Part shown: positions 8,103 through 35,146 of the stretch, one piece after another
Layout of the letters: each line of letters begins with the position of its first letter
Numbering within the stretch: position 1 is the stretch's first letter
Source: Pseudomonas sp. FP453
GTDB taxonomy: Bacteria > Pseudomonadota > Gammaproteobacteria > Pseudomonadales > Pseudomonadaceae
Direction of reading: 5' to 3'
NCBI RefSeq assembly: GCF_030687495.1
Contig: NZ_CP117435.1
Location: forward strand, 5,708,501-5,772,500
DNA: 64,000 nt
The notes under the pieces: model-generated
Told to the model about the DNA's origin: nothing
Database searches by the model: none
Seen by the model: the letters and a program-made list of their open reading frames with translations, nothing else
Program-made: the position numbers and the translations under genes

Positions 8103-8134
8103 TAAACGACTGGCGTTTACACATCCAGCCCGGC

Positions 8135-8163
8135 AAAAAAAAGCGACCTATCGGTCGCTTTTT
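8135..8163. terminator. Bidirectional rho-independent terminator
   Basis: AAAAGCGACC and its inverse GGTCGCTTTT are separated by the 4-base loop TATC, with an A-run on one side and a T-run on the other. It sits between the convergent anti-sigma gene and fdhA and can end both transcripts. Confidence 0.9.
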
Positions 8164-8177
8164 CCAGGCTCTAGGGG

Positions 8178-9377: not shown

Positions 9378-9482
9378 GCTTTCACCTCGCTGTTGTTTTT
9401 ATGGAACTGCGTTGCCCTTGGGTGGGCAGCGCGTTAAATGCTCGGGTACAGATGCTGTTTCTTGGGTTGTTTGTTGGGGCCT

Positions 9483-9550
9483 CATCGCAGGCAAGCCAGC
9501 TCCCACAGGCGTACGCATTCCAAATGTGGGAGCGGGCTTGCCCGCGATAG
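9483..9550. repeat. REP pair, tail-to-tail type
   Basis: The core ATCGCAGGCAAGCCAGCTCC and the diverged inverse TGTGGGAGCGGGCTTGCC face outward around a linker containing GCATTCCAAA. It lies between purU and fdhA inside the operon. Confidence 0.85.
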
Positions 9551-9556
9551 CGTCAG

Positions 9557-10414: not shown

Positions 10415-10424
10415 AAGGTATTCC

Positions 10425-11057
10425 TCAGGCTTGGACACTCAGGCCGAACTCGGCGGACGCGTCCTGCAACCACAACCACCAGTAGTCCGAGAAGCTACGG
10501 CGAATCAACAGTTCCCAGGTGTCTTCGGCCGTGTGGCGGATCACCAGTTGCGACTTGGCGAACACCGTGCCCACGGCCTTGCCCACCGGAAAGTTGTCGG
10601 GGTGCACGTCGTAGCTGGTGGACTTCATCAGCACATCGCGTACGTTCGGGCCGCTCAGTTCAAGGATCTGCTGGCCGCCGCTGACGTTGACGATCTGGAT
10701 ATGCAACTCACCCAGGGCGTCACGCAGCTTTTGTTCGGCGGCGAATTCTTCACCGCTGGGCACGATGAGCAACCACTCATCCGGGCCGAGCCATTGCAGG
10801 CTGGTGTCGCCCTTGACGATCACGGTCAACGCGCTTGGCAGTTCGATGCCCAGTGCCTTGTGCACACCGGCGGCAAAGGCCGCGTCATGGCCATCACCAC
10901 GAATGGTCAGGTGGCCCAGGAGTTTCTTTTCGCGCACGGTCACGCCGGCGTTCTTGCGGCCCTTGCCGACCAGGCTGGCGAGGTCGGCATGGTGCAGCGA
11001 CGACTCGGCCTTGGCCCCGGTGGTTGGGCGTTGTTGGTAAACATTGGCTGCTGTCAT
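10425..11057 (-). CDS. soxG: Sarcosine oxidase gamma subunit SoxG
   Basis: A 210-residue subunit of heterotetrameric sarcosine oxidase. The pattern LLGHLTIRGDGHD, WLGPDEWLLIVPSG and VNVSGGQQILELSGPNVRDV resembles a folate-binding GcvT-like fold, as known for SoxG. It lies 125 bp downstream of soxA with a REP pair in the gap and 11 bp ahead of purU. Together with SoxA, SoxB and SoxD it oxidises sarcosine to glycine and formaldehyde (or methylene-tetrahydrofolate). Confidence 0.92.
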   Translation of the reverse strand: MTAANVYQQRPTTGAKAESSLHHADLASLVGKGRKNAGVTVREKKLLGHLTIRGDGHDAAFAAGVHKALGIELPSALTVIVKGDTSLQWLGPDEWLLIVPSGEEFAAEQKLRDALGELHIQIVNVSGGQQILELSGPNVRDVLMKSTSYDVHPDNFPVGKAVGTVFAKSQLVIRHTAEDTWELLIRRSFSDYWWLWLQDASAEFGLSVQA

Positions 11058-21021: not shown

Positions 21022-22317
21022 ATGGACGTCACCGCAACCTTAAGCTTGGGCGATCCGCTGGAACCCGCACGCAAGGCCACCGCGCAAATGCTGCAAGAGC
21101 GCGAGCGCACCTTCTCGCTGCCCCAGCCGTTTTACTCTGATGAGCGGCTGTTCGATATCGACATGCAGGAGATCTTCCAGAAAGAGTGGTTGATCGCCGG
21201 CATGACTTGCGAGATCCCCGCCAAGGGCAACTACCTGACCCTGCAAGTGGGCAAGAACCCGATCATCGTGATCCGTGGCGCCGAAGGCGTGGTGCATGCG
21301 TTCCACAACGTGTGCCGCCACCGCGGTTCGCGCTTGTGCACCAGCGACAAGGGCAAGGTCGCCAAACTGGTCTGCCACTACCACCAGTGGACCTACGAGC
21401 TGGACGGCCGCCTGCTGTTCGCCGGCACCGAGATGGGCGCCGACTTCGACATGAAGCAATACGGTTTGAAACCGGTGAACGTGAAGACCGCTGGCGGCTA
21501 CATCTTTATCAGCCTGGCCGAGAACCCGCCGGCCATCGATGACTTCCTGTCGACACTGAACCACTACATGGAACCGTACGACATGGAGAACACCAAGGTG
21601 GCGATCCAGACCACCTTGTTCGAAAAAGCCAACTGGAAACTGGTGCTGGAAAACAACCGCGAGTGCTACCACTGCAACGCGTCGCACCCTGAATTGCTGA
21701 AAACCCTGCTGGAATGGGACGACGTCACCGACCCGCGTGCCGACCAGGCCTTCAAGGACCACGTCGCCGCCTCCGCTGCTGCCTGGGACGCCGAGAAGAT
21801 CCCTTACGCCCACGCCAGCTTCGGCCTGCGTAACCGTATCGTGCGCATGCCGCTGCTCAAGGGCACTGTGTCGATGACCCTCGACGGCAAGCAGGGCTGC
21901 AAGAAGTTGATGGGCCGTATCCAGAACCCGGACCTGGGCTCGATGCGCATCCTGCACCTGCCCCATTCGTGGAACCACTGCATGGGCGACCACATCATCG
22001 TGTTCACCGTGTGGCCGATCAGCGCCCAGGAAACCATGGTCACCACCAAGTGGATCGTGCACAAGGACGCTGTCGAAGGCGTGGACTACGACGTGGAGCG
22101 CATGCGCCAGGTGTGGGACGCCACCAACGACCAGGACCGGCGCCTGGCCGAGGAGAACCAGCGCGGTATCAACTCCACGGCCTACCAGCCTGGCCCGTAC
22201 TCCAAGACCTATGAGTTCGGCGTGGTGAACTTTGTGGATTGGTACAGCGAGCGCATGCTCAGCAACCTGGGCGCGGCGCCAGCGCCGTACCTCAAGGGTG
22301 TTGCCGTACACGAGTAA
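21022..22317 (+). CDS. gbcA: Glycine betaine demethylase Rieske oxygenase GbcA
   Basis: A 431-residue ring-hydroxylating-type oxygenase that removes one methyl group of glycine betaine as formaldehyde, giving dimethylglycine. The Rieske 2Fe-2S ligands are in NVCRHRGSRLCT and VCHYHQWTYELDG. The C-terminal catalytic domain has the mononuclear iron region NRECYHCNASHPELLKTL. The ATG at 21022 (MDVTATLSLGDPLEP...) follows GAGGA at a good distance and matches the known protein start; the frame is open further upstream without support. It works with GbcB, encoded divergently. Confidence 0.95.
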   Translation: MDVTATLSLGDPLEPARKATAQMLQERERTFSLPQPFYSDERLFDIDMQEIFQKEWLIAGMTCEIPAKGNYLTLQVGKNPIIVIRGAEGVVHAFHNVCRHRGSRLCTSDKGKVAKLVCHYHQWTYELDGRLLFAGTEMGADFDMKQYGLKPVNVKTAGGYIFISLAENPPAIDDFLSTLNHYMEPYDMENTKVAIQTTLFEKANWKLVLENNRECYHCNASHPELLKTLLEWDDVTDPRADQAFKDHVAASAAAWDAEKIPYAHASFGLRNRIVRMPLLKGTVSMTLDGKQGCKKLMGRIQNPDLGSMRILHLPHSWNHCMGDHIIVFTVWPISAQETMVTTKWIVHKDAVEGVDYDVERMRQVWDATNDQDRRLAEENQRGINSTAYQPGPYSKTYEFGVVNFVDWYSERMLSNLGAAPAPYLKGVAVHE

Positions 22318-22336
22318 ACAGGTGAGTAGTGGCTTA

Positions 22337-22426
22337 TGTGGGAGCGGGCTTGCCCGCGAATGCGCGGGATCAGCTTGCACATGCAGCGGCTGACACACCG
22401 CCTTCGCGGGCAAGCCCGCTCCCACA
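22337..22426. repeat. REP pair, head-to-head type, GC variant
   Basis: TGTGGGAGCGGGCTTGCCCG and its inverse enclose about 45 bp immediately downstream of gbcA. Confidence 0.88.
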
Positions 22427-22499
22427 TTTGGGTCCGCACACTGTTCAAAATCTAGCCAGACAGCCTCCAGCCCGCCAACCCCCTGCCCTCCAGCCTTTA

Positions 22500-23045
22500 C
22501 CCAACAACTTATCCACAAAGACACCCACAGCAATTGTGGGCAACTGTGCTTGTCACCCACAAATAACTGAAGAAAATCCGTGACTTATTCAAGCAGACGG
22601 TTTTAGGCAGCCACTGATCAATTTTTAACCATAACTCTGCAAGCTGCGTAAACCGTGGCCTGTAGCGGTACGCAAACACCTTATCCACAGATCCGCCAAC
22701 AGACTTTGGGTGTAACTTTGGCTGCGCTGTGGAAAACCACGCCAAAGCTTCATAAACCGAGGCTTTCAGAGCTTTCATTCGCATTTGCAGGCAAATTGAT
22801 CACTTTTTAATCATGTCGACGAAAGCCTTTATCCATAAGGCCTGTAGCCAATAGCGAACATCTTATCCACAGAAGCGCCAACAGACTTTGGGGGCAAGTC
22901 CAGATCCCCAGGTGTCCTTATCCACACGAAAACTGCCCTAAAAACCGTTACTTAGCCTGGTTATTTTTCGTACAAGCGCCTGTAGCCGTTGATTCACGTG
23001 GCCTGTGGACAACCACGAACACCTTATCCACAGCCACGCACACAG
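22500..23045. repeat. Degenerate ~182-bp tandem repeats carrying DnaA boxes
   Basis: This gene-free region holds about four diverged units. GGCCTGTAGC recurs at 22657 and 22839 (and a partial copy near 22979), GCCAACAGACTTTGGG at 22695 and 22877, and TGATCA/C-A/T-TTTTTAA at 22615 and 22798. These are all offset by 182-183 bp. Each unit contains one perfect DnaA box TTATCCACA: 22509, 22681, 22863 and 23024, with an extra one at 22918 and a near match TTATCCATA at 22829. The GATC-led AT-rich stretches resemble the 13-mers of bacterial replication origins. No coding potential is evident. See the findings for interpretation. Confidence 0.8.
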
Positions 23046-23170: not shown

Positions 23171-23665
23171 ATGCGGCAGGGTAAAACCAGCCATCACTGC
23201 GCCACAGGTTTTACGCTGATTGAATTGCTACTGACGCTGGCCCTGCTGGCCACGCTCGCGACAGTGGCTTATCCGCTGACGGCATTGATGGGTAAACGCG
23301 ACCGGGAACTGGACTTGCAACGTTCGTTGCGGGAGATCCGCCGCGCCATCGATTCCTACAAAGAGGCCACCGACGACGGCCGCATCGAAAAAAGCGTGAC
23401 CGCCAGTGGTTATCCACCGACCCTGCACGTACTGGTTGAAGGCGTCACGGATAAAACCAACCTGCAAGGCAACAGACTCTACTTCCTGCGACGCATTCCA
23501 CGCGACCCGATGTGCGAGTGCCCCGACCTTGCGCCTGAAAAAACCTGGCGACTGCGCAGCTACAAAAGCACCGCCGACAACCCACAAGAGGGAGAGGATG
23601 TATTCGACGTTTCATCCCGCAACACCCGGGAGAGTTTGAATGGAACGTTATACAGCCAGTGGTAA
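23171..23665 (+). CDS. Pseudopilin (type II secretion GspG-like)
   Basis: A 164-residue protein with a class III (prepilin) signal: a short basic leader, then cleavage at G/F in TGFTLIELLLTLALLATLAT, with the conserved Glu at mature position 5. The mature part continues as the usual long helix with KRDRELDLQRSLREIRRAID. It has two cysteines (PMCECP). The start could be GTG 23168 or ATG 23171; both fit the AGGAGA site. It opens an apparent operon of secretion genes that runs to 34243. Its stop overlaps the start of the next pseudopilin gene. Confidence 0.82.
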   Translation: MRQGKTSHHCATGFTLIELLLTLALLATLATVAYPLTALMGKRDRELDLQRSLREIRRAIDSYKEATDDGRIEKSVTASGYPPTLHVLVEGVTDKTNLQGNRLYFLRRIPRDPMCECPDLAPEKTWRLRSYKSTADNPQEGEDVFDVSSRNTRESLNGTLYSQW

Positions 23666-24020
23666 ACGGGGCTTTACCCTGATCGAGTTGCTCGTGGTCA
23701 TGGCCATAATCGCCACCCTCATGACCCTGGTGACGCCCCAGTATTTCCGCCAGCACGCCAAGGCCCAGGAAACCGTGCTGCGCCACAACCTGTCGTCCAT
23801 CCGCCAGGCCCTGGACCAATACCGCGAAGACCACGGCGCCAACCCCGAATCCCTGCAAGCCCTGGTGGAAAAACGCTACTTGCGCGAGGTGCCCAAGGAC
23901 CCGGTGACCGGCAGCCGCGACACCTGGCAACTGCAACCCTCGGACGAACAAGGCCTGGGCGACGTGCGCAGCGGTGCGCCCGGCACGGCCAACGACGGGA
24001 GCGCCTATGCCGACTGGTAA
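23640..24020 (+). CDS. Pseudopilin (type II secretion GspG-like)
   Basis: A 126-residue pseudopilin with leader MERYTASGKRG and the cleavage motif G/FTLIELLVVMAIIATLMT, including Glu5. The C-terminal part contains LQALVEKRYLREVPKDPVTG, which matches the GspG-like core (PxDPxxG). It overlaps the previous gene by 26 bp and the following gene by 14 bp, so the three are translated together. It is likely processed by a prepilin peptidase encoded elsewhere, because none is in this cluster. Confidence 0.84.
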   Translation: MERYTASGKRGFTLIELLVVMAIIATLMTLVTPQYFRQHAKAQETVLRHNLSSIRQALDQYREDHGANPESLQALVEKRYLREVPKDPVTGSRDTWQLQPSDEQGLGDVRSGAPGTANDGSAYADW

Positions 24021-24522
24021 ACAGCGCCAACAGGGCTCGGTGTTCATGGGCATGTTGGTGACGGTGGCCGTGGTCGCCGTGATGCTGATGGAAGTCGGCA
24101 CGCTGTGGTCCAGCGTGTTGCAGCGCGAGCGCGAGCTGGAATTGCTGGCGCGGGGCAATGAGATTCGCCGGGCGATTGGGCTGTATTACCGCGAGGGCAA
24201 CAGCTTTCCGAAAACCCTCGAAGACCTGGTGCTCGACCGCCGCCAGCCCACCGTCAAACGCTACCTGCGCCGGGTCTACGACGACCCGCTGACCGGCAGC
24301 TCTGAATGGGGTGTGGTCGAGGGGCCGGGTGAAACCATCATGGGTGTGTTCAGCAAGGCCAAGGGCACGCCGTTCAAACAAGGCAACTTCTCAGTCATCA
24401 ATCAACGTTTTACAGGGCAAGGTAGTTATCAAGGGTGGGTGTTTCTGTATGGCTCTGTGCAGAGTAATCCTGCAACCCGCACCACTCCCGTGGGAGATCA
24501 GCTGACCCATGATACCAATTGA
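24007..24522 (+). CDS. Atypical pseudopilin-like protein without Glu5
   Basis: A 171-residue protein with one N-terminal hydrophobic helix. The motif is RQQGSVFMGMLVTVAVVAVM: a Gly precedes the helix, but mature position 1 is Ser instead of Phe and position 5 is Gly instead of Glu. The following ERELELLARGNEIRRAIGLY and KRYLRRVYDDPLTGS blocks closely parallel the two preceding pseudopilins, so common origin is clear. Loss of Glu5 is a feature of the tip pseudopilin GspK, so this may cap the fibre or stay in the membrane uncleaved. The next gene is 64 bp away. Confidence 0.72.
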   Translation: MPTGKQRQQGSVFMGMLVTVAVVAVMLMEVGTLWSSVLQRERELELLARGNEIRRAIGLYYREGNSFPKTLEDLVLDRRQPTVKRYLRRVYDDPLTGSSEWGVVEGPGETIMGVFSKAKGTPFKQGNFSVINQRFTGQGSYQGWVFLYGSVQSNPATRTTPVGDQLTHDTN

Positions 24523-24586
24523 ATAATCACCCTGATCGTTCCAGCAGTTCGGAACTTGTTTATCTGAATTGAAGGTGGACTAGAGC

Positions 24587-26047
24587 ATGAGAAACTCACA
24601 GCGATTTACGAAGAGCTTAATCAAACTGGTGCTGCCAGCGTTACTTCTATTGCCGACACTGCACGCGCTTGCACACGGGTACTTGGACGGCGATTTATCT
24701 TCACGTGCGCGCCTGTGCCAAACCGGCGTCAACACTAACTGCGGCGGCGCGCAGTATGAGCCGCAAAGTACCGGTGAAACGTTCCAAGGCTTTCCTGGAG
24801 GCTCTGGAGGGTCAGCCGGCCAAGGGCCAAAGGACGGCCAGATAGCCAGCGGTGGGAACAGTCTTTTTTCGGCGCTGGATGCTCAGACAGAGACACGCTG
24901 GAAAAAAATAGAAATAACCGATCAAAACATTGTTTTTGTCTGGAAATACTTGGCGCCGCACCCGGTAGACTTTCACAAATACTTCATCACGAAGAACAAC
25001 TGGGATCACAACAAACCCCTGACACGCGCATCGTTTGAAAGTACGCCATTCTGTATATTCCCAGGCTCCGGTGTCATGCCAGTACCCGACACAAAGCATG
25101 CCTGTGTGATTCCGCCAGGGAAGGATGGCTACCACGTGATTCTGGGAATTTGGGGCGTTCGCGACACGAAAATGGCGTTTCATGACCCCGTCGATGTGAT
25201 GATCAATATCCAACCAGGTTTACCAGGCGGCTGGAAAAGCGTGGGCAGTATCAGACCGTCTGTCTCCCTGCTGCCCGGTGACACGGTCAAGGCACGCGCG
25301 TTCAGCAACACCGGCGAAAGCTTCAACTACAGCGCCGATATTGCGATTAACAGCGCAACCGAGGGCCAGCCTGCAGAATGGTCCCACGCACTTGCCAAAA
25401 AGCTTAACGACACCCAAAGCCTGATCAAGGCAGGTGTTCGCGACGCAAGCGATAACATCACTCCCGTGAAAGGCCCCAATGAGATATACGCGAAGCCGGA
25501 GAGTGGCGTGACCCACTATGAAATTGAGGTAAACGTTAAAGATGACCCAAGCGTACGTATGGCTATTTCGGCGCTGGCTTCGGAATACCCTCTGGTAGAT
25601 GGAAAAGGGCGTATGCGCTTTCCAATACTGCTCACCCACCCGATGAACGTCGAAGCCACTTTGCTTGATCAAAAGAACAAAGCCGTCGGCTCCGTTGCAG
25701 CTGACGTCCAAAGCGGCACTCACTGGCTTGAGATGGATGTAACCAGTACGCCAGGGCCGCACACACTGATCATGACGGGCACAACGAAAGATGACAGGAC
25801 TTCACGCCAGGATTCGCAAAGCGCCAATATCACCGGTTCCGGTGGATCGCAGGAATATGATTTTGTATTCCCCAACGGGCTGAAAGAATACAAGGCGGGA
25901 ACCCGTGTGCTTCAACCAAAAAACGGAAAGGTCTACGAATGCAAGCCAGGAAGCGTCGCAGGTTGGTGCACGATCTGGACGCAGCATGCGAACCAATACG
26001 AACCCGATGTGGGGTCCAATTGGACTGACGCGTGGTTCCTCAAGTAA
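24587..26047 (+). CDS. GbpA-like lytic polysaccharide monooxygenase, chitin-binding
   Basis: A 486-residue secreted protein. The Sec signal peptide ends at LHALA, so the mature chain begins with His30 (HGYLDG), the N-terminal histidine of the copper 'histidine brace' in AA10 enzymes. The AA10 catalytic domain covers about 30-215 and includes LFSALDAQTETRWKK. Middle domains like those of Vibrio GbpA follow (about 220-415), and a C-terminal chitin-binding module ends the protein (ECKPGSVAGWCTIWTQHANQ). Its DNA is visibly less GC-rich than the flanking secretion genes, which suggests separate acquisition. Such enzymes cleave chitin oxidatively and leave the cell by type II secretion, so it is the probable cargo of this system. 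Confidence 0.88.
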   Translation: MRNSQRFTKSLIKLVLPALLLLPTLHALAHGYLDGDLSSRARLCQTGVNTNCGGAQYEPQSTGETFQGFPGGSGGSAGQGPKDGQIASGGNSLFSALDAQTETRWKKIEITDQNIVFVWKYLAPHPVDFHKYFITKNNWDHNKPLTRASFESTPFCIFPGSGVMPVPDTKHACVIPPGKDGYHVILGIWGVRDTKMAFHDPVDVMINIQPGLPGGWKSVGSIRPSVSLLPGDTVKARAFSNTGESFNYSADIAINSATEGQPAEWSHALAKKLNDTQSLIKAGVRDASDNITPVKGPNEIYAKPESGVTHYEIEVNVKDDPSVRMAISALASEYPLVDGKGRMRFPILLTHPMNVEATLLDQKNKAVGSVAADVQSGTHWLEMDVTSTPGPHTLIMTGTTKDDRTSRQDSQSANITGSGGSQEYDFVFPNGLKEYKAGTRVLQPKNGKVYECKPGSVAGWCTIWTQHANQYEPDVGSNWTDAWFLK

Positions 26048-26286
26048 CGGCCGACAAAGACAGCAACGGGGCAATTTGAGCGTCGCACTCATCACGCGAC
26101 GCTCTTCCCAAAAGACCGTTATTCACAAAAACGCTATAGAAAAGTGCCAATCGTTATAGGGCGCACAACGTCGCCATATATCGAGCGACGCTACAGTTGA
26201 ATATGTACTCGTTCAAACGCAGTTCTACCGGCGGTGCCCGCCTTAATGCGGGCCGGGAGAGTTCCACACAACCGCCGGGTATTACC

Positions 26287-26718
26287 ATGCGCGAACGCTC
26301 CTTTATCCACAGCCCCCAACACGGCTTCACCCTGCTGGAGCTGCTGGTCGTCCTCCTCATCATCGCCCTCCTCGCCGGCTACGTCGGCCCGAAGATGTTC
26401 GATCGCCTCGAACTGGCCAAAGTCCAGACCGCCCAAGGCCAGATGAAGTCCCTGGCGGATGCCTTGAACCAATACCGCCTCGACACGGGCAACTACCCCG
26501 ACGAGACCCTGGGCCTGAATGCACTCACCACCCGCCCTGCGAACGCGAACAACTGGCAGGGGCCCTATTTGAAAACCTTGCCCCCCGACCCGTGGGGCAA
26601 CCCGTACCTGTTCAAGAACCCCGGTTCACCGCCCAACGACGCAGAGATCATTTCGCTCGGCCGAGACGGCAAGGCCGGCGGGGAGAACACCTACGCCGAT
26701 ATCGTGTACGGCCTGTGA
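26287..26718 (+). CDS. Major pseudopilin GspG
   Basis: A 143-residue protein that matches GspG best of the four prepilin-like proteins. The leader is MRERSFIHSPQHG, cleavage precedes FTLLELLVVLLIIALLAGYV (Glu5 present), and the globular part has LNALTTRPANANNWQGPYLK and PDPWGNPYLFKNPG, the calcium-loop region of GspG. An ATG at 26287 is used; an in-frame start 90 bp upstream would give an unusually long leader. It forms the periplasmic pseudopilus. The gene is separated by about 240 bp from the monooxygenase gene, so it may have its own promoter. Confidence 0.9.
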   Translation: MRERSFIHSPQHGFTLLELLVVLLIIALLAGYVGPKMFDRLELAKVQTAQGQMKSLADALNQYRLDTGNYPDETLGLNALTTRPANANNWQGPYLKTLPPDPWGNPYLFKNPGSPPNDAEIISLGRDGKAGGENTYADIVYGL

Positions 26719-26719
26719 C

Positions 26720-27184
26720 ATGCGCAGGCTGCCGTTTGCCCTGACCCTGCTGTGCCTGGCAGGCACTGCCCAGGCCAATTGCTGGCAGCTGGCAGCCAGC
26801 CGCTACCACGTCGATCCGCTGTTGCTGTACGCCATCGCCAAGGTCGAATCCAACCTCAATCCCCGCGCGCGCAATATCAACGGCGATGGCAGCCAGGACA
26901 TCGGCCTGATGCAGATCAACAGCCGCCACTTGCCCGCCCTCGCCCGCTTCGGTATCACCGAACAGCAATTGATCAGCCAGCCCTGTACCAGCGTGATGGT
27001 CGGCGCGTGGATCCTGGCCGCGTTCATTCAAGAAAAGGGCTACGGCTGGCAGGCCGTCGGCGCCTATAACGCGGGCGCCCGGCCGGATCGCGAGGCGCAC
27101 CGGACGCGTTATGCCCTGGCGGTGTGGCGCTACTACGGCGAGTTGCTGCAACAACGCCAGCAATTGGCGAGGCACGGCCCATGA
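26720..27184 (+). CDS. Lytic transglycosylase (SLT/IagB-like)
   Basis: A 154-residue periplasmic muramidase with signal peptide MRRLPFALTLLCLAGTAQA. The catalytic Glu is in AIAKVESNLNPRARN, with IGLMQINSRHLP and WQAVGAYNAG completing the goose-lysozyme-like signature. It resembles the small transglycosylases IagB/VirB1 that open peptidoglycan for secretion machines. The start is 1 bp after the gspG stop region and its end overlaps gspF (ATGA), so it is a fixed part of the operon. This is not a standard component of type II clusters. Confidence 0.87.
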   Translation: MRRLPFALTLLCLAGTAQANCWQLAASRYHVDPLLLYAIAKVESNLNPRARNINGDGSQDIGLMQINSRHLPALARFGITEQQLISQPCTSVMVGAWILAAFIQEKGYGWQAVGAYNAGARPDREAHRTRYALAVWRYYGELLQQRQQLARHGP

Positions 27185-28365
27185 TCGACATCGACGCCCG
27201 CATCATCCGCGACGGCCATTTGCAGACCCTGCGCCTGCAAGCTGTCGACGTGACCCAGGCCCGCCAGCAACTGCAAGCCGGGGGAGCCCATGTCATCTCG
27301 CTCAAGGCCCGGCGCCCACTCACCTTGCCCAGCCGTCGCGCCAAATTCGCCCTGGGCCTGTTTATCCAGGAACTGGTGGTGCTGCTGGACGCCGGCCTGG
27401 TGCTGGTGGAAGCCGTGGAAACCCTGCGCGACAAGGCGCCACCCGGGATCAACCGGCAGGTCATGAGTGATCTGCTCGCGTCAATGTACGAAGGCAATTC
27501 ATTGTCCAGGGCAATGCAACTCAAGCCCCAGGTATTCCCTGCGCTGTTGATCGCCACCGTGGCCTCATCCGAGCACAGCGGCCAACTGGCCGTGGCGCTG
27601 CGTCGTTATCACCATTTCGAAGCGCATCTGGAGACCGTGAAAAAGCGCGTGAGCGGCGCGCTGATGTACCCCTTGGTGGTGCTCGGCGTTGGGGCGTTAA
27701 TCTTGCTGTTTCTGTTGTTTTTCGTGATTCCGCGCTTCGCCTCCGTGTTCGACGCGGTGGCCGATCTGCCCGCCACCGCGCGCTTTATGGTGGGGTGGGG
27801 TGCGCTGGTGGAGACGCGCGGCACCGAGTTGTTGATCGGCCTGGCGCTGGCGATTGGCGCGCTGCTGGTGCTGTTTCGCAGCGCTGCGTTCAAGCGCCGG
27901 GTCGCCAACCTGTTATGGAAAATCCCCCGCCTCGGCGCCCAGCGCACGCTGTTTATCCTCGCGCGCTTTTATCGCACCGCCGGCATGTTGCTGATGGGCG
28001 GGATGCCCGTGGTCACGGCGGTGGAAATGTCCGGCGCACTGCTGCCCATCGAGCGCCAGGCTGACCTGCGCCACGCCATCAGCGATATCCAGGCCGGCCA
28101 GCCGCTGTCCACGTCCCTGGCGCGCCATCAACTGACCACTGCTGTCGCCGAACGCCTGCTGCGCGTCGGCGAGCAAAGCGGTGAATTGGCGGCCATGTGC
28201 GAGCGCATTGCGCAGTTTCACGACGAAGCGCTGGAACGCGCCATCGAGCTGTTCAGCAAGGTTTTCGAACCGTTGCTGATGTTGGTGGTGGGCGGGCTGA
28301 TCGGCCTGATCGTGTTCATGCTGTACATGCCGATTTTCGAACTGGCCGGGTCCATACAGGGGTAG
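27181..28365 (+). CDS. Type II secretion inner membrane protein GspF
   Basis: A 394-residue platform protein of the GspF/PilC family. It has two repeated cytoplasmic helical domains, each followed by hydrophobic segments: LMYPLVVLGVGALILLFLLF at about 160-180 and MLVVGGLIGLIVFMLYMPIF at the C-terminus. LSRAMQLKPQVFPALLIATV and LSTSLARHQLTTAVAERLLR are the two family motifs. The ATG at 27181 overlaps the stop of the transglycosylase gene; a longer frame upstream is not needed. It contacts the GspE ATPase encoded next. Confidence 0.9.
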   Translation: MIDIDARIIRDGHLQTLRLQAVDVTQARQQLQAGGAHVISLKARRPLTLPSRRAKFALGLFIQELVVLLDAGLVLVEAVETLRDKAPPGINRQVMSDLLASMYEGNSLSRAMQLKPQVFPALLIATVASSEHSGQLAVALRRYHHFEAHLETVKKRVSGALMYPLVVLGVGALILLFLLFFVIPRFASVFDAVADLPATARFMVGWGALVETRGTELLIGLALAIGALLVLFRSAAFKRRVANLLWKIPRLGAQRTLFILARFYRTAGMLLMGGMPVVTAVEMSGALLPIERQADLRHAISDIQAGQPLSTSLARHQLTTAVAERLLRVGEQSGELAAMCERIAQFHDEALERAIELFSKVFEPLLMLVVGGLIGLIVFMLYMPIFELAGSIQG

Positions 28366-28369
28366 TGCC

Positions 28370-30007
28370 ATGAGCGAACAGACACGCCAATGGCAAGCAC
28401 TGGCAGAGCAACGGTCAATGTCCTTGGCCAACTACCTGCTGGAAGTGCTGCACAACAGCCCCGACCAATTGGGCAGCATCGCCGCGCCGCTGGGCTTGAT
28501 CGCCATCGAGCCCGGCCAGTTGGGAAACCATTGGCGTTTCGACGTGCTGCCCCTGCCCCAGGCATTGCTCCACAACGTGCTGCCCCTGGACTATCAGGGC
28601 CGCACCTGCCTGGTGCTGGGCGAGCCCTTTGCCCAGGCCTGCCGGCACTGGATCCAGGCCACCCCTGACCTGCGCCAACTGCCGCTGGCCATGAGCCTGC
28701 CGGACGCGGTCAAGGCCCAACTGAAACTCGCCGAAACCAGCCAGCGCGTCATGCAACCCTTCGGCGCAGGCGACGAAAACGCCCGCGTCGGCCAGGCCGC
28801 CGAGGAAATTTCCCTGACCAGCATTGCCCGCGACGACAACCCGGTGGTGCGTTTAGTCAATTCGATGCTGTTCGACGCCTTGCAAAGCCGCGCCAGCGAT
28901 ATTCATGTGGAAACCAACCCCGAAGGCCTGGAGATCAAATACCGCATCGACGGCGTGTTGCAAAAGATGGGCAACGCCAGCGGCCTGGACATGGCCGAAC
29001 AGGCGCTGTCACGGATCAAGGTGCTGTCGGAACTGGATATCGGCGAACGCCGGGTGCCCCAGGACGGGCGGTTCAAGATGAAAATCCAGGGCCGCGAGGT
29101 GGATTTTCGCGTGTCGATCATGCCCAGCATCCATGGCGAAGACGCGGTGCTGCGCATCCTCGACAAGTCCCAGCGCGGCGAATCCCTGACCCTGGAAAGC
29201 CTCGGCCTGGCCGCTGACACCATCGCACGCATTCGCGTGTTGGCCCGCGAGCCCTACGGCATGTTGATCATCACCGGGCCTACGGGCAGTGGCAAATCCA
29301 CCACCCTGTATGCCGCACTCACGGAGATCAACACGGGCGAGCAGAAGATCATTACCATCGAGGACCCGGTCGAATATCACCTGGCCGGGGTGACGCAGAT
29401 CCCGGTCAACGACAAGAAGGGGCTGACGTTCGCCCGTGGCCTGCGCTCGATCCTGCGCCACGACCCCGACACGATTCTGGTGGGGGAAATCCGTGATGGC
29501 GACACCGCTGGCATCGCCGTGCAAGCCGCGTTGACCGGGCACCGCGTGCTGACCTCGTTGCACGCCAACAGCGCCTTCAGCGTCCTGGAGCGTTTCAACT
29601 ACATGGACGTCGATGCCCACAGCGTGGTGGAAGCTCTCAACGGCGTGGTTGCCCAACGCCTGGTGCGACGCATCTGCCCGGACTGTGGGACCAGTACCAA
29701 ACCGGATGCAGAAATCGCCCGGCTCGCCCACTTGACCAGCGCCCAGCTCAAGCAGGGCCACTACCGCATCGGCAAAGGCTGCGAAGCCTGTCGCCACACC
29801 GGCTATCGCGGGCGGATCGCCCTGGCGGAAGTCCTCGCCATGACCGACAGCATCAAACAAGGCCTGCTCAACCGCAGCTCCGCATCCACCTTGCGCGAAC
29901 TGGCGCGCGAAGCCGGCCATGTGTTCATTCGCGATATCGCCCTGGCCCATGCGGCCCGGGGCGAGACCACGCTCAAGGAGATCCACCGTGTCATTTCCCT
30001 TTACTGA
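28370..30007 (+). CDS. Type II secretion ATPase GspE
   Basis: A 545-residue hexameric assembly ATPase. The N-terminal N1E-like domain covers about 1-130. The core has the Walker A motif GPTGSGKST (303-311), the Asp box ITIEDPVEYHL, the Walker B region DPDTILVGEIRD and the His box TSLHANSAFSVLERF. A four-cysteine zinc motif CPDC...CEAC follows near residues 445-480. This combination is typical of GspE/PilB. It begins 4 bp after gspF and overlaps the next gene. Confidence 0.92.
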   Translation: MSEQTRQWQALAEQRSMSLANYLLEVLHNSPDQLGSIAAPLGLIAIEPGQLGNHWRFDVLPLPQALLHNVLPLDYQGRTCLVLGEPFAQACRHWIQATPDLRQLPLAMSLPDAVKAQLKLAETSQRVMQPFGAGDENARVGQAAEEISLTSIARDDNPVVRLVNSMLFDALQSRASDIHVETNPEGLEIKYRIDGVLQKMGNASGLDMAEQALSRIKVLSELDIGERRVPQDGRFKMKIQGREVDFRVSIMPSIHGEDAVLRILDKSQRGESLTLESLGLAADTIARIRVLAREPYGMLIITGPTGSGKSTTLYAALTEINTGEQKIITIEDPVEYHLAGVTQIPVNDKKGLTFARGLRSILRHDPDTILVGEIRDGDTAGIAVQAALTGHRVLTSLHANSAFSVLERFNYMDVDAHSVVEALNGVVAQRLVRRICPDCGTSTKPDAEIARLAHLTSAQLKQGHYRIGKGCEACRHTGYRGRIALAEVLAMTDSIKQGLLNRSSASTLRELAREAGHVFIRDIALAHAARGETTLKEIHRVISLY

Positions 30008-30713
30008 GCACGTGGTGTGGTTACACAGCAGCGGCGCCACGTGGGCCGCCCGCCCGCGCTGGCGGGGTGCGACCGTCTGGCGCGCGGAGCGGGCCGGCGA
30101 GCCGTTGGCGGCCTGCGCGCAGTTGCTGGAGCAGGCACCGCGCGGGCGCGTGCGGTTTCTGGACCGGGCCAGCGTGCTGCTGGGCTTTCCCCATGTGCAG
30201 TACCTGATGCTCCCATGGCAAACCGGCCTGCACCGCAGGGCTGACTGGCAAGGGTTCGCCGCAGCCGCGTTCAACCAGCAGGCCGGGATGAGTGCCGAGG
30301 GCTGGCAGGTGCAGGTCGCCAACAGTGCCTTCGGCCATGACCGCCTCGCGGTGGCAATCCAACGGGATTTGCTGCAAGACCTGCGCGATCTGTTCAAGCT
30401 GGCGCGCTTGCCCCTGCTGACCTGCACCCCACTGCTCACGGCCGTGGCCCAGCGCTACTGGCGATACCTGCCCGAAGACTGCGTGCTGGCGGTCGCCGAA
30501 TCCGACGCCCTCAGCTGCCTCTATCGGCAACGGGGCGCGCCGGCCCAGGTGTGCGTGCTGCCCACCCCACCCGACAGCCAATTGAGCGACAACCTGTTCA
30601 CCGCCGACCTGCTCGCTCAACGCAGCGCGCCGGCCACGCTGATTGTCGCCAACCGCCCTGTCACGCCATGGCTGGGGCCGTTGCATCCCTGGCTGGAGGA
30701 CGCGCCCGCATGA
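29988..30713 (+). CDS. GspL/PilM-like cytoplasmic component (divergent)
   Basis: A 241-residue protein with a GTG start at 29988 preceded by AAGGAG and overlapping gspE by 20 bp. There is no membrane segment. It has Trp-rich stretches (VVWLHSSGATWAARPRWRGA) and a middle part with LAVAIQRDLLQDLRDLFKLA. I do not recognise the family from sequence. Its place between gspE and the PilN/PilO-like genes is that of PilM or the cytoplasmic part of GspL, which link the ATPase to the membrane platform. The assignment rests on position. Confidence 0.55.
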   Translation: MSFPFTEHVVWLHSSGATWAARPRWRGATVWRAERAGEPLAACAQLLEQAPRGRVRFLDRASVLLGFPHVQYLMLPWQTGLHRRADWQGFAAAAFNQQAGMSAEGWQVQVANSAFGHDRLAVAIQRDLLQDLRDLFKLARLPLLTCTPLLTAVAQRYWRYLPEDCVLAVAESDALSCLYRQRGAPAQVCVLPTPPDSQLSDNLFTADLLAQRSAPATLIVANRPVTPWLGPLHPWLEDAPA

Positions 30714-31264
30714 AATCCTGGCTCGCCAGTGCCTGGCAGCTGCTGCGCACGCCCCCTGCGCCCGCGGTTGATTTCCAACACGCCAACGCCCCCCTTCGGC
30801 CACTGATCGGAGTGTTGTGGCTGGTGGCGCTCCTGCTCCTGTTCAACACCTGGCAGCACTGGCAGCGCATGGAGCAACAGCAACTGCACACCGATGAATT
30901 GGAGCAGCAGTTTATCCAGCTGACGCGCCGCCAAGAGCAGTTGATCCAGGCCGCGATTCGCCTGTCTCCGCAACAAAAACAGCAACTGGCCGCGTTTTCC
31001 CGGCAAGCAATCACGCCCTTCCCGCTGATGGACGCCGTAGCCCGGGCCTGGTCCGCAGATATCGCCTTGACGCGGGTGGAGGTCAACACCCAGAACCAGA
31101 TGTTGCTGTTGGAACTTGAAGCCAAGGCGCTGGGCGATGCGTTCCGCTTTGTCGAACGGCTCAAGGCCCAACCCGGGGTCCATGTGAACGTGCAACAGAG
31201 CGCGCGCAAGGCCAACGACCCGCAGCACCCGGTGCAGGTCAAGCTTGCCGTTGGCGCGGAGTAA
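30710..31264 (+). CDS. PilN-like secretion platform protein
   Basis: A 184-residue bitopic membrane protein: a short cytoplasmic N-terminus, one helix (LIGVLWLVALLLLFNTW, about 31-47), a coiled-coil stretch rich in Gln/Glu (HWQRMEQQQLHTDELEQQF) and a small periplasmic domain. This is the PilN/GspL C-terminal layout. The ATG overlaps the previous stop (ATGA) and follows a GGAGG site. With the next two genes it forms a PilN-PilO-PilP-like trio rather than the usual GspL-GspM-GspC set. Confidence 0.65.
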   Translation: MKSWLASAWQLLRTPPAPAVDFQHANAPLRPLIGVLWLVALLLLFNTWQHWQRMEQQQLHTDELEQQFIQLTRRQEQLIQAAIRLSPQQKQQLAAFSRQAITPFPLMDAVARAWSADIALTRVEVNTQNQMLLLELEAKALGDAFRFVERLKAQPGVHVNVQQSARKANDPQHPVQVKLAVGAE

Positions 31265-31271
31265 GCCAGCG

Positions 31272-31808
31272 ATGGACACGCTGACCCGTCACCTGCCGCG
31301 CTTGCGCTGGTACCTGCTGCAATGGCAGCAGAGCCTGGGCTTCTGGGGCCTGCTGGCGCTGACCTTGATGGCCACAGCACTGGTGATCGATGCCACGGTG
31401 GTGCACCCGGCGCGCATCGCCGACAGCCAGCGACGCCAGGAGCTGGAAGCCGGTATCGCCGAACAACCCCAGGATGTACAAGTCACCGAACCTGCGGTGG
31501 TGGAAGAGATGCCCGGCGCCGCCGACTTCGCCCCTCGCCTGGAAAAACTGCTGGATACCCTCGGCCGACGCGGTTTCATCATCGACCGAACCACCCTCGC
31601 CTACTCCGTTCCCGGCGATATCGGCCTGCAACGCCTGGACGTGGAGATCCCCCTCAGCGGCCCCTACAGCCTGTTGCGCGAAGCCTTGGCAGATGCGGCG
31701 CAAGAACCGGCGGTGCGCATCGAAAGCCTGACCCTGGAGCGCAAGGAAATCGTCAGCGGCTTGCTGAGTATCAACCTCAAAGTCAGCCTACTGGGGGTGG
31801 CGCAATGA
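31272..31808 (+). CDS. PilO/GspM-like secretion platform protein
   Basis: A 178-residue bitopic protein. The membrane helix (SLGFWGLLALTLMATALVID) is at about residues 20-42, followed by a periplasmic domain with a short linker (EAGIAEQPQDVQVTEPAVVE) and a ferredoxin-like pattern (LQRLDVEIPLSGPYSLLREA). The topology and size match PilO and GspM. It starts 7 bp after the previous gene, with GGAG ahead, and overlaps the next by 4 bp. Confidence 0.65.
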   Translation: MDTLTRHLPRLRWYLLQWQQSLGFWGLLALTLMATALVIDATVVHPARIADSQRRQELEAGIAEQPQDVQVTEPAVVEEMPGAADFAPRLEKLLDTLGRRGFIIDRTTLAYSVPGDIGLQRLDVEIPLSGPYSLLREALADAAQEPAVRIESLTLERKEIVSGLLSINLKVSLLGVAQ

Positions 31809-32290
31809 AACTGCCGCTGTATTTGCGCGTGCTGTTGCTGCTGACCCTGGTCGGCTGCGGCTGGCTGTTCTGGCAGGACACCCCGGAAAACCCCGCCCCC
31901 CAGCCCAGCGCGGCCGTGGTCAAACCCGCCGAACCTGCGCCGGCCCCAACGCCCGTGCCCCAACCGGGAGCAGTGATCGACCTGTTCCCAGCCCAGTCCT
32001 GGATCCCACCACCGCCGCCGGCCGCCGTGGATAACGCGCCGCCCAAACCACCGCCGCTGCCCTTCACCGTCAGCGCGCAATGGCGTTACGAGCACCAAGG
32101 AAAAATCGTCGTACTGCGCGGCAACGGCACCCAGTACACCCTGTGCAACCGCTGCGCGGTGCCCGGGCGCATCGTGCCGGGCACGATGCTCGACGCCCAC
32201 TACCGGCTGGACAAACTCACCGATACCGCCGTGGTGCTGACCTACCTGCCACTCAAGCATGTCAGCACCCTGCGCCTGGACCACCACTGA
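31805..32290 (+). CDS. GspC/PilP-like periplasmic connector
   Basis: A 161-residue protein with an N-terminal membrane anchor (LYLRVLLLLTLVGCGWLFW), which could also be a lipobox (TLVGC). A Pro/Ala-rich linker (about 30-85) follows, then a C-terminal domain with FTVSAQWRYEHQGKIVVLRG, resembling the homology-region domain of GspC/PilP that docks onto the secretin. Two cysteines lie in LCNRCAVPG. It is located directly before the secretin gene, as pilP or gspC often is. Confidence 0.65.
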   Translation: MKLPLYLRVLLLLTLVGCGWLFWQDTPENPAPQPSAAVVKPAEPAPAPTPVPQPGAVIDLFPAQSWIPPPPPAAVDNAPPKPPPLPFTVSAQWRYEHQGKIVVLRGNGTQYTLCNRCAVPGRIVPGTMLDAHYRLDKLTDTAVVLTYLPLKHVSTLRLDHH

Positions 32291-32308
32291 CCGGGCAAGG
32301 ATACGATC

Positions 32309-34243
32309 ATGACGAGACGTACGTGGATTCCCCTGAGCCTGGCGCTGCTGCTCCATGGCTGTGAGACCCAGCGGGCGATCAAGCACAGCGACGAGTTACG
32401 CCAACAGGGCGATATCGTCAGGTCAGTCGAAGTGCTGCAAGCCGAAGCCAAGCAATCACCTGACGACGTGCAATTGCGCACGGCGCAATTCGGCACGCTG
32501 GAACTGCTGGTTGCCCAATACAGCCGCGAGGCCAGCACCGCGCTGGTGCGCGGCGACGACGCGGCGGCCATCCGCGCCCTGGAAACCATCCTCAAATACG
32601 ACCCCGGCAACCTCGGCGCGCGCCAGGAAATCCAGAGCATCCAGGCCATGAAACAACTGCGTCCGCAACTGGCGCGGGCCTATGAGATGAAACGCGCCAA
32701 CCCGGTGGAGGCGCTCAACCTGGTGCGCCAGATCATCGCGCAAAAGCCCAACTACCGAGAGGCCCTGGACTTTCGCAACGCCCTGACCCGCGAACTGGTG
32801 AGCGCCGACTACCTCAGCGCCGACCTGTCCGACGCCATGCGCAAACCCCTGAGCCTGGAGTTCAGCGCCCAGAGCCTGAGCACGATTTTCGAGACCATCG
32901 CGCGCCTGTCGGGGGTCAACTTTGTCATCGACAAGGACGTCAACCCCAGCGCCGCCGCCAGTATGACGGCCAGCCGCACCACGGCCGAAGACGCGTTGAA
33001 CCTGTTGCTGACCACCCAGGGCCTGGAGAAGAAAATCCTCAACCGCAACACCATCCTGATCTACCCCCGACGCCCCGACAAGGAACGTGAATACCGCGAG
33101 TTGGCGGTGCGCACGTTTTACCTCAGCCATGGCGACGCCAAGATCGTCGCCGCCGAGATCAAGCAGGTACTCAAGCCCAGGGAAGTGCTGGTGGACGAGC
33201 GATTGAACGCGGTGATTGTGCGCGATGGCCTGGACACCCTCAGCGCCGTGGAAAAAATGGTCGAGGCCATTGATATCGCGCAGTCCGAAGTGACCATTGA
33301 TATCCAGGTGCTGGAAGTCAGCCTCACCGATGAATTGAACCTGGGCATCAAGTACCCGGAAAGCGTGGGGGTGTCAGTGGGCAACCTGGCCAATGTGCCC
33401 GCCGGGCTCGCCGGGATTCCCCTCAGTGCATTGCGCGGCATCAATGGCGACAACATCCTGCTGGACGCCGGCAGCACCTCGGCACGCATCAACATGCTGC
33501 AACGCAGCGGCAACACGGTGACCCTGGCCAACCCACGGGTGCGCGTGCGTAACCGGGAAGAAGCGGCGGTGAACATCGGTGACAAGATCCCGGTGGTGAC
33601 CACCACCACGGCCAACCAGATCACCACCTCGTCGGTGTCCTACCAGGACGTGGGGCTGCAGATCACGGTCAAGCCGATCATCAGCCTGAGCGATGAGGTA
33701 AACCTGGAGTTGAATGTGGAGATGAGCCATATCACCAAGCGCATCCCCGGCTCGGAAAACGTGCCCGCCACGTTTGAACTGGGTTCGCGCGCCACCAAGA
33801 CGCTGCTGACCGCGCGCAACAATGAAACCCAGATCGTCTCGGGGCTGATCCGCACGGCGGACGTTGACGAAGGCTCGGGGTTGCCGTGGTTGAGCCAGAT
33901 CCCGTGGATCGGCAAGAAGCTGTTTGGCACCAACCAGAGCACCCAACAGAAAACCGAGATCATCTTGCTGCTGACGCCACGGATCGAGCGCAACCTGGAT
34001 TTGCCGATCTCGCAGATCAGTACCTTTCACAGCGGCACCGAGGCGCGCAGTTCGACGGAGGGCATGATCCTGCGCGATACCACCGAGAAGATGATTCTCA
34101 AGCCCACCGGCGGCGATCCGACGCCTGCGCTGCCGCCCCCCATGCAGCAGCCGGATGCCAACTGGGCACCGCTGCCGCCACCGTTGCCGGATTTGGCGCC
34201 CAAGCCTGTGCCAGTACCAGCGCCGCAACCCCAGGCACAATGA
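32309..34243 (+). CDS. Secretin GspD, lipoprotein type
   Basis: A 644-residue outer membrane channel. The signal has a lipobox (LALLLHGC), so the protein is probably lipidated, which can replace a separate pilotin. The N-terminal part has TPR-like helices (VEVLQAEAKQSPDDVQLRTA; LNLVRQIIAQKPNYREALDF). The N-domain block starts LSLEFSAQSLSTIFETIARL. The C-terminal secretin core has VLEVSLTDELNLGIKY, the VTLANPRVRVRNREEAAVNI segment and RTADVDEGSGLPWLSQIPWI. The last ~60 residues are Pro-rich. TPR plus secretin is closer to MshL/tight-adherence-like or non-classical type II secretins than to Xcp-type GspD. Confidence 0.88.
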   Translation: MTRRTWIPLSLALLLHGCETQRAIKHSDELRQQGDIVRSVEVLQAEAKQSPDDVQLRTAQFGTLELLVAQYSREASTALVRGDDAAAIRALETILKYDPGNLGARQEIQSIQAMKQLRPQLARAYEMKRANPVEALNLVRQIIAQKPNYREALDFRNALTRELVSADYLSADLSDAMRKPLSLEFSAQSLSTIFETIARLSGVNFVIDKDVNPSAAASMTASRTTAEDALNLLLTTQGLEKKILNRNTILIYPRRPDKEREYRELAVRTFYLSHGDAKIVAAEIKQVLKPREVLVDERLNAVIVRDGLDTLSAVEKMVEAIDIAQSEVTIDIQVLEVSLTDELNLGIKYPESVGVSVGNLANVPAGLAGIPLSALRGINGDNILLDAGSTSARINMLQRSGNTVTLANPRVRVRNREEAAVNIGDKIPVVTTTTANQITTSSVSYQDVGLQITVKPIISLSDEVNLELNVEMSHITKRIPGSENVPATFELGSRATKTLLTARNNETQIVSGLIRTADVDEGSGLPWLSQIPWIGKKLFGTNQSTQQKTEIILLLTPRIERNLDLPISQISTFHSGTEARSSTEGMILRDTTEKMILKPTGGDPTPALPPPMQQPDANWAPLPPPLPDLAPKPVPVPAPQPQAQ

Positions 34244-34251
34244 AGATCAAC

Positions 34252-34354
34252 TGTGGGAGCTGGCTTGCCTGCGATACAGGCACCTCGGTCTATCAGCCAG
34301 ACCGAGGCGATGCTATCGCAGGCAAGCCAGCTCCCACACACGCCAGCTCCCACA
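34252..34354. repeat. REP pair plus truncated third copy
   Basis: TGTGGGAGCTGGCTTGCCTG and its inverse form a head-to-head pair (34252-34338), followed by a fragment CCAGCTCCCACAG at 34342-34354. It lies between the convergent secretin gene and etfB. Confidence 0.85.
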
Positions 34355-34375
34355 GGGTTTTGTCGTGTTTTCGGG

Positions 34376-35146
34376 TTAGCGTACGACGCCCTCTTCCACC
34401 AACAGCTTGAGGATCGCCTGGGCGCCTTCTTCCGCGCTCACGCCCTTGAGCACTTGCCCGCCACCGCCACTGGCCTTGGCCGTCGCGGCCTTCATCCGGT
34501 CCGCACCGCTCTTGGCCTTGATCACCTTCAAGCGCTTGGGCCGAGGCTTGGCCGGTTGCAGCACGGCGTCGGTGAACAACCCGTCCTCTTCCACCTCGAC
34601 CTCATGGGCCGTCAACTCACCCCGTTGCGCCGGGCCGTAGGCACTTTGCCGTGGCTTGGGCGCGGCGTTGTCCACCGTGGCCAAAAACGGCAAGCGCACC
34701 TTCAACCGTCGCCGCTGCCCGCGCGGCAACGCTTGCAGCACATGCGCCACGCCGCCGTCGATGGACTCCACTTGCGCCAGCCCGACGATCAGCGGCCAGC
34801 CCAATTGTTCGGCGAGCAAAAACGGCAACATGCCCGAGCCTTCGCCGGTTTCCGCCTGGCTGCCGGCGAGCACCACGTGGGCACCGGCATCGCGCAGGTA
34901 CTCGCTGAGCACCGGCAACGCATCGCTGCCCGCCGGTTGTTCCAGCACATGCAATTGCGGCAGGCCCATGCCCAGGTAACTGCGCAGGGTCGGCTCGTTG
35001 ATATTGCCGGCGTGCAGCACCTGCAACTGATCCCCCGCCATCTGCAAACCCAACTCGACGGCGCGGGCGTCTTGCTCGGCACGGCGCGGGCGCCCGGACG
35101 TCGGGTGTGCGCCGATGGACACCAGGCTGATTACATTCGTGGTCAT
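34376..35146 (-). CDS. etfB: Electron transfer flavoprotein beta subunit
   Basis: A 256-residue ETF beta-type protein. It has the AMP/FAD-binding fold with LVSIGAHPTSGRPRRAEQDA at the start and VLAGSQAETGEGSGMLPFLL in the middle. The ATG at 35146 follows AAGGAG; the frame extends 21 bp further without support. It sits 10 bp downstream of etfA. This dgc-linked pair accepts electrons from dimethylglycine demethylation rather than from fatty acid oxidation; that role comes from operon context and from the known P. aeruginosa cluster. Confidence 0.85.
   Translation of the reverse strand: MTTNVISLVSIGAHPTSGRPRRAEQDARAVELGLQMAGDQLQVLHAGNINEPTLRSYLGMGLPQLHVLEQPAGSDALPVLSEYLRDAGAHVVLAGSQAETGEGSGMLPFLLAEQLGWPLIVGLAQVESIDGGVAHVLQALPRGQRRRLKVRLPFLATVDNAAPKPRQSAYGPAQRGELTAHEVEVEEDGLFTDAVLQPAKPRPKRLKVIKAKSGADRMKAATAKASGGGGQVLKGVSAEEGAQAILKLLVEEGVVR

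Follow-up and report, generated by a model that had tools for sequence, protein, structure and literature searches.

Results

Gene content and layout of the cluster

This study concerns a cluster of secretion genes in a stretch of 64,000 nucleotides from Pseudomonas sp. FP453 (assembly GCF_030687495.1, contig NZ_CP117435.1, positions 5,708,501 to 5,772,500), referred to below as the window, whose host genome is a single contig of 6.28 Mb. At positions 23171-34243 of the window, 13 co-directional genes lie on the + strand in the order psA, psB, psC, the gene of a lytic polysaccharide monooxygenase (LPMO), gspG, a transglycosylase gene, gspF, gspE, M, N, O, P and the secretin gene D. An original prediction from the sequence had described a non-canonical type II secretion system (T2SS) cluster here, and all of its genes, their strand and their coordinates are reproduced by our analysis; only its total of twelve genes is wrong, since its own listing adds up to 13. 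It had also stated that most genes overlap by a few bases, which by the coordinates holds for six of the 12 junctions (4-26 nt) and not for the other six. Ten junctions are no more than 26 nt apart, and the widest gaps lie on either side of the LPMO gene (64 nt at its 5' side and 239 nt at its 3' side). The features are as follows.

23171-23665, + strand: psA, prepilin-like (GFTLIE), with a C-x-C pair restricted to the chitin-linked subclade described below
23640-24020, + strand: psB, small GspG-like pseudopilin
24007-24522, + strand: psC, pseudopilin-like, lacking Glu at +5; start probably at 24007, with the frame open from 23974
24587-26047, + strand: putative cargo, AA10-type LPMO (LPMO_10 and GbpA_2), with signal peptide and the His at the mature N-terminus (ALA|HG) assigned by eye
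26287-26718, + strand: GspG, major pseudopilin, exceeding its NCBIfam cut-off
26720-27184, + strand: SLT lytic transglycosylase, IagB-like, below the IagB cut-off
27181-28365, + strand: GspF, inner-membrane platform
28370-30007, + strand: GspE-like assembly ATPase
29988-30713, + strand: M, GspL-type cytoplasmic (actin-like) domain as a protein of its own, starting with GTG
30710-31264, + strand: N, bitopic, PilN-like
31272-31808, + strand: O, bitopic, PilO/GspM-like; T2SSM_b match in 4/5 homologues scanned
31805-32290, + strand: P, transmembrane segment, Pro-rich linker and GspC/PilP-type domain with a CxxC insert
32309-34243, + strand: D, secretin; Cys18 in a lipobox-like setting, a TPR-like region at the N-terminus, STN and a single Secretin_N

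Families of the secretion components

The best NCBIfam matches of GspD, GspE, GspF and GspG are all Gsp models. GspG scores 144.6 bits against the T2SS major pseudopilin model TIGR01710 (cut-off 88.85), whereas GspE, GspF and GspD stay below their equivalog cut-offs (474/630, 229/424 and 147/351 bits, respectively), which are passed by two canonical controls, L019 in the same genome and L335 in another, for GspD (689 and 536), GspE (735 and 720) and GspF (533 and 513). The MshL model reaches only 100 bits against its cut-off of 250. Domain matches include T2SSF in GspF, T2SSE in GspE, and STN plus one Secretin_N in the secretin, whose N-terminal region is TPR-like at a score under the Pfam cut-off. 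Its Cys18 is invariant in 7/7 aligned sequences, in keeping with the lipoprotein secretin that had been proposed. The proposed polysaccharide monooxygenase is likewise borne out by the domains LPMO_10 and GbpA_2, with 477 bits against the NCBIfam GbpA model, just below the cut-off of 481, and the transglycosylase belongs to the SLT family (IagB model 176 bits, cut-off 208).

Both psA and psB carry a prepilin motif and reach no GspH, GspI, GspJ or GspG cut-off of NCBIfam, and psC matches no NCBIfam family. No prepilin peptidase is encoded within the cluster. The earlier view that GspH/I/J/K and a peptidase are absent stands for the cluster; since the genome encodes two prepilin peptidases elsewhere, we rejected the idea that the system lacks such an enzyme. 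Glu at +5 is lacking in all 16 psC proteins aligned; a heuristic scan found it in psC 0/90, psA 88/91, psB 83/90 and gspG 47/48, where start choice and cut sites are themselves heuristic, so that its absence from three psA, seven psB and a single GspG may reflect misparsing or be real. GspK is the known T2SS pseudopilin without this residue. Since psC shares that feature, it may fill the place of GspK at the pseudopilus tip.

The platform proteins M, N, O and P

None of M, N, O and P has a Pfam match above cut-off. The original prediction had taken them for a PilM/N/O/P platform and the machine for a hybrid between a type IV pilus and a T2SS, which holds for N and O only because M is probably of GspL type and P leans weakly to GspC. 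M is a protein of 241 aa in which no transmembrane segment is seen. Its top five Foldseek matches are all T2SS entries, four of them named EpsL/GspL cytoplasmic domains, hhalign gives PilM 0.2%, and a crude pattern for the first nucleotide motif of PilM is present in 30/30 PilM, 4/80 M and 0/25 GspL proteins. We therefore rejected M as PilM, although PilM and GspL tied in VIA-align, the only comparison to give this result, and with modest probability it is a GspL-type cytoplasmic domain. Since M is free-standing, GspL is split over two genes, M and N, and the cluster has no single GspL with cytoplasmic, transmembrane and periplasmic parts. By profile comparison N (184 aa, one transmembrane segment by eye) is closest to PilN (hhalign PilN 96%, GspM 93%; PDB profile match to PilN, E 0.042) and O to PilO (PilO 98%, GspM 95%; PDB profile match to PilO, E 9.4e-9), with GspM a close second for both. 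P leans weakly to GspC (hhalign GspC 52-66%, PilP 23-30%). PilP is the sole platform protein matched by P in the PDB profile search, at E 0.15-0.34, and in view of this weak match and the hhalign result we rejected P as a clear PilP. Among the small proteins, a match to the T2SS counterparts (GspL, GspM and GspC) that would count against the original prediction was found for M only. A side observation concerns the pilMNOPQ locus of the same genome, where PilM (G000:C1:474354-474857, open frame 248 aa) aligns to the PilM model over its N-terminal half only; this gene may be shortened or broken.

A separate and widespread lineage

A psA scan of named genomes found at least 376 relatives. We compared 91 loci, comprising the best 80 of these at least 376 relatives and eleven loci from congeners; L027 and L053 are the same locus counted twice, 16 loci are shorter than 15 kb, and absence of a gene means absence from the stretch compared. 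The full set of gspE, M, N, O and D is present at 77/91 loci, and because these genes recur together the cluster is not a chance assembly. In many relatives gspG-gspF precedes gspE-M-N-O-D, and in most psA-psB-psC follows. Both beta- and gammaproteobacteria carry this set of genes, among them Pseudomonas, Azotobacter, Zobellella, Nitrosomonas, Janthinobacterium and Paraburkholderia. A psC profile matched 2935 of 8000 candidates scored, which bear generic names where they are named, and judged by such matches the lineage is widespread. psA was found in 8/398 genomes sampled across the phylum, the host genome included, all eight in one class. Among 35 congeners, the window type occurs in two (secretin identity 88-91%) and a curli-linked type in nine (32-34%).

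In the first trees the lineage formed one side of a branch for the secretin (27 sequences, SH-like approximate likelihood ratio test (SH-aLRT) 99), GspE (27 sequences, 100) and GspF (21 sequences, 100), and it remained separate in all three (GspF again at SH-aLRT 100) after addition of LPMO-neighboured T2SS and of clusters starting gspE-gspF-gspG, which fall outside it. Mixture-model trees with 15 lineage sequences supported it at 100/99 for the secretin and 100/100 for GspE (ultrafast bootstrap (UFBoot)/SH-aLRT), as had been predicted for these two proteins. T2SS sequences, taken as one class in which Xcp and Hxc are not distinguished, formed their own clade (GspE 99/95, secretin 100/99), and the secretin lies outside it rather than inside an Xcp or Hxc clade; in the GspF tree the T2SS branch has a support of 0. 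The mannose-sensitive haemagglutinin (MSHA) pilus clade is apart from the lineage at 100/100 for the secretin and for GspE, as is the type IVa pilus (T4aP) secretin clade, PilQ, at 100/100. In the GspE tree the long branches of the lineage and of L339/L342 meet, and T4aP is represented in the first tree only by one gene labelled PilB and absent from the later ones; that gene, third among the GspE-like genes of this genome, was rejected as a T4aP reference since its neighbours are unlike a pil cluster. The trees are unrooted and hence show separateness and not age. Excluded were the tight adherence (tad) sequences (L021) and L020 from the later trees, and 12/27 lineage sequences, T2SS_L266, L341, L328, L331 and L336 from the mixture-model trees; seven of 19 loci added later (L329, L332-L334, L337, L338 and L340) are in no tree.

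Linkage to chitin-active enzymes and replacement of the LPMO

A protein matching the LPMO profile occupies the same slot at 18/18 other window-type Pseudomonas loci (L024, L025, L035-L050), and the seven of these slot proteins that were scanned for domains all carry LPMO_10 and GbpA_2. Together with loci of Pandoraea, Paraburkholderia and Roseateles, the window type forms one clade (secretin 100/99, GspE 92/99), the chitin-linked subclade, in which chitin-enzyme genes are present at 21/21 loci. An LPMO is encoded at 19/21 (18 Pseudomonas loci and Pandoraea L078, with the order LPMO-gspG-transglycosylase-gspF onward) and, within the stretches compared, at 0/70 relatives outside the subclade. 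The IagB-like transglycosylase shows the same counts (19/21 and 0/70). At Paraburkholderia L056 a GH18 gene lies ahead of gspG and two GH19 genes follow the pseudopilins, and at Roseateles L062 a GH18 gene lies about 4.5 kb past the pseudopilins; the chitinases at both loci carry CBM5/12. Outside the subclade, the SLT gene of L056 has matches at three loci and the chitinase queries matched at two, L071 and L072.

The slot is kept, and the enzyme in it is not. Median identity to the window over the 18 loci is only 27% for the LPMO (range 22-97), next lowest 72% for M and O, and as high as 92% for D and 90% for GspF, and at 16/18 loci the LPMO is only 22-31% identical to that of the window. Only 22% is shared between the LPMOs of two of these loci, L035 and L036, against 78% for N, O and P, 91% for M and 92-95% for psA, psB, psC, GspG, transglycosylase, GspF, GspE and D. 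DNA homology of the window with L036, L044, L038 and L039 stops at 24590 and resumes at 26120-26218 (26142 for L036), a break that brackets the coding sequence between its start codon at 24587 and its stop at 26047, while L040, with a related LPMO, is alignable throughout. Because homology ends at the LPMO start and resumes past its stop, the coding sequence looks as if it had been replaced and had not changed by drift alone. The counts inside and outside the subclade and the retention of the slot through replacement argue strongly for the resident LPMO as the likely cargo of the machine, as originally proposed.

Cysteine pairs of the chitin-linked branch

A CxxC pair in P is found in 20/20 subclade proteins and 0/61 others, a C-x(1-3)-C pair in psA at 21/21 subclade loci and 0/70 others, and no Cys pair in psB (0/90). 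Because the subclade loci form one clade, each pair is probably a single gain and not a repeated correlation.

Discussion

Taken together, these comparisons make it probable that the product of the cluster is a machine of the type IV filament superfamily dedicated to secretion across the outer membrane, which represents a separate T2SS-like lineage and exports an LPMO. The T2SS-like lineage with a split GspL is real and widespread, and its chitin-linked branch is the likeliest exporter of the resident LPMO. We infer that the LPMO would enter the periplasm via Sec, where a GspG pseudopilus, polymerised by GspE and GspF and tipped by psA-psB-psC, would drive it out onto chitin. M, as a detached GspL cytoplasmic domain, would connect the ATPase GspE with the membrane proteins N and O, P would link this platform to the secretin, and the secretin would probably pilot itself as a lipoprotein. 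The transglycosylase may open the peptidoglycan for assembly, and the prepilins would be cleaved by a peptidase encoded elsewhere in the genome.

Several points weigh against this reading. The genome also encodes a canonical T2SS (L019), which matches T2SSC and T2SSM once each and whose GspD/E/F exceed their cut-offs, and LPMO-profile matches also adjoin canonical T2SS in other genera of the family (L327-L330). A canonical parallel is the Txc T2SS of P. paraeruginosa PA7, which is involved in secreting the chitin-binding protein CbpE encoded beside it; the LPMO-neighboured loci L327, L328 and L330, labelled Txc-like and standing in the comparison for Txc itself, differ from the cluster by lying within the T2SS clade. 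A PilNO-like pair is in itself unremarkable, since PilMNOP homologues are present in MSH and T2SS according to Denise et al. Finally, the lineage may be of the same kind as Geobacter Pul, an atypical T2SS with three pseudopilins.

This last possibility, extended to the Oxp proteins of Geobacter or to Hpl of P. aeruginosa, has about an even chance; only the LPMO-linked branch would then be new, and it is compatible with an LPMO exporter. In the literature consulted (PMC3543383, PMC10599522, PMC7894505, PMC6668835, PMC12369383, PMC3570484 and PMC8619066 served for this and the other comparisons), Pul, termed an atypical T2SS by a reference cited there, comes with the pseudopilins PulG, OxpG and TklG, and the multicopper oxidase OmpB is not secreted without it. 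Expression of pulGPQF rises jointly, and the promoter of pulF is bound by a regulator. The likeness, drawn by description only, lies in three pseudopilins together with Pul proteins and in a copper enzyme as cargo. The original remark that this exact set of genes was not known to have been described holds for Pseudomonas, where none was found in a literature search that left subscription papers mostly outside, and less well for Geobacter. Clusters starting gspE-gspF-gspG, an order that Hpl, with HplR and HplS, seems to share, lie outside the lineage, which would speak against Hpl. We know of no LPMO link in Geobacter Pul/Oxp. Loci L339 and L342-L345 have yet another T2SS-like layout, which begins gspE-gspF-gspG-pseudopilins; in L343-L345 it continues with genes resembling those of GspL/PilN, GspM/PilO and GspC and with a secretin gene. 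These loci are possibly related to Hpl.

It is unlikely that the cluster builds a surface fibre like a type IV pilus or MSHA, with the LPMO a mere neighbour or displayed on the fibre. N and O are nearest PilN and PilO, M and N are separate genes as in T4aP PilMNOPQ, and related clusters adjoin curli genes; MSHA, too, combines a PilM/N/O/P-type platform with a secretin and has no GspH-M set. However, GspG passes the cut-off of the T2SS major pseudopilin model, M has neither the nucleotide motif nor the size of PilM, the MSHA clade is separate for secretin, GspE and GspF and the T4aP clade for the secretin, and the chitin-enzyme genes accompany every locus of the subclade.

It is very unlikely that the LPMO is exported by the canonical T2SS of the genome and that the cluster exports another substrate. 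GbpA is known to be secreted by a T2SS, and L019 has the components listed above. The literature, moreover, places CbpD of P. aeruginosa under T2SS. However, the LPMO gene lies inside the operon and stays there despite wholesale replacement, and it is absent from all related clusters of other types within the stretches compared. The secretin of L019 (9198-11483 of the locus) has a lipoprotein-like start, and that system may be Hxc. HxcQ is a self-piloting lipoprotein secretin, a likeness to secretin D, and Hxc differs from the cluster in being a canonical T2SS with the full Gsp set.

An ordinary T2SS (Xcp, Hxc or Txc) with diverged parts is scarcely credible, since the best matches of D, E, F and G to Gsp models and the leaning of M and P to GspL and GspC are outweighed by the separate clade of T2SS sequences, Txc-like ones included, the cut-offs missed by D, E and F, the split GspL and the unreached GspH/I/J cut-offs.

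Selection of cargo by T2SS is a long-standing question. Very similar machines with LPMOs only 22-31% identical in one slot provide a ready-made test of recognition by exchange of cargo between close species, and the split GspL is a natural dissection of a T2SS component. It is a doubtful speculation that the branch exports chitin enzymes only, that cargo cassettes are swapped whole while the machine is kept, so that recognition would rest on a feature common to very different LPMOs, and that the Cys pairs of P and psA help to handle the cargo, for example by binding a metal or by bonding the platform to the tip.

Genomic setting and relatives with other neighbours

The genes flanking the cluster are presumably gbcA/gbcB upstream and etf/dgcB downstream, judging by their sequences. 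gbcA is in the upstream stretch at 17/18 other window-type loci (about 8 kb away at L047 and L048), so the cluster looks settled and we rejected its reading as a mobile island. Judging from the translated frames, repeats resembling Pseudomonas repetitive extragenic palindromes lie at 34243-34400, at the downstream end of the cluster, and at 22317-22560, after gbcA.

The lineage also includes curli-linked versions. Genes that we take to be csgE/csgG from their sequences, often with a curlin gene, adjoin the related machine at L026-L034 in Pseudomonas and at 16/80 named loci (L053, L070, L074, L075, L080-L083, L085, L091, L098, L101, L104, L108, L109 and L113), which suggests that this machine acts in or near amyloid fibre export. 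The idea that such clusters lack GspF was rejected, since a GspF (41-45% identity) is encoded 14-21 kb off in 4/4 genomes checked. In L027 a secretin frame (7673-10459) appears from its sequence to have a long C-terminal extension of cohesin type. A thermolysin-like M4 metalloprotease gene is present at seven Janthinobacterium loci (L092, L084, L102, L103, L106, L107 and L114), directly ahead of gspF in L092, and its product is possibly another dedicated cargo. At Noviherbaspirillum L058 (11721-20468), a protein of 2916 residues with SpvB, TcdB-mid and RHS domains is encoded after the pseudopilin genes.

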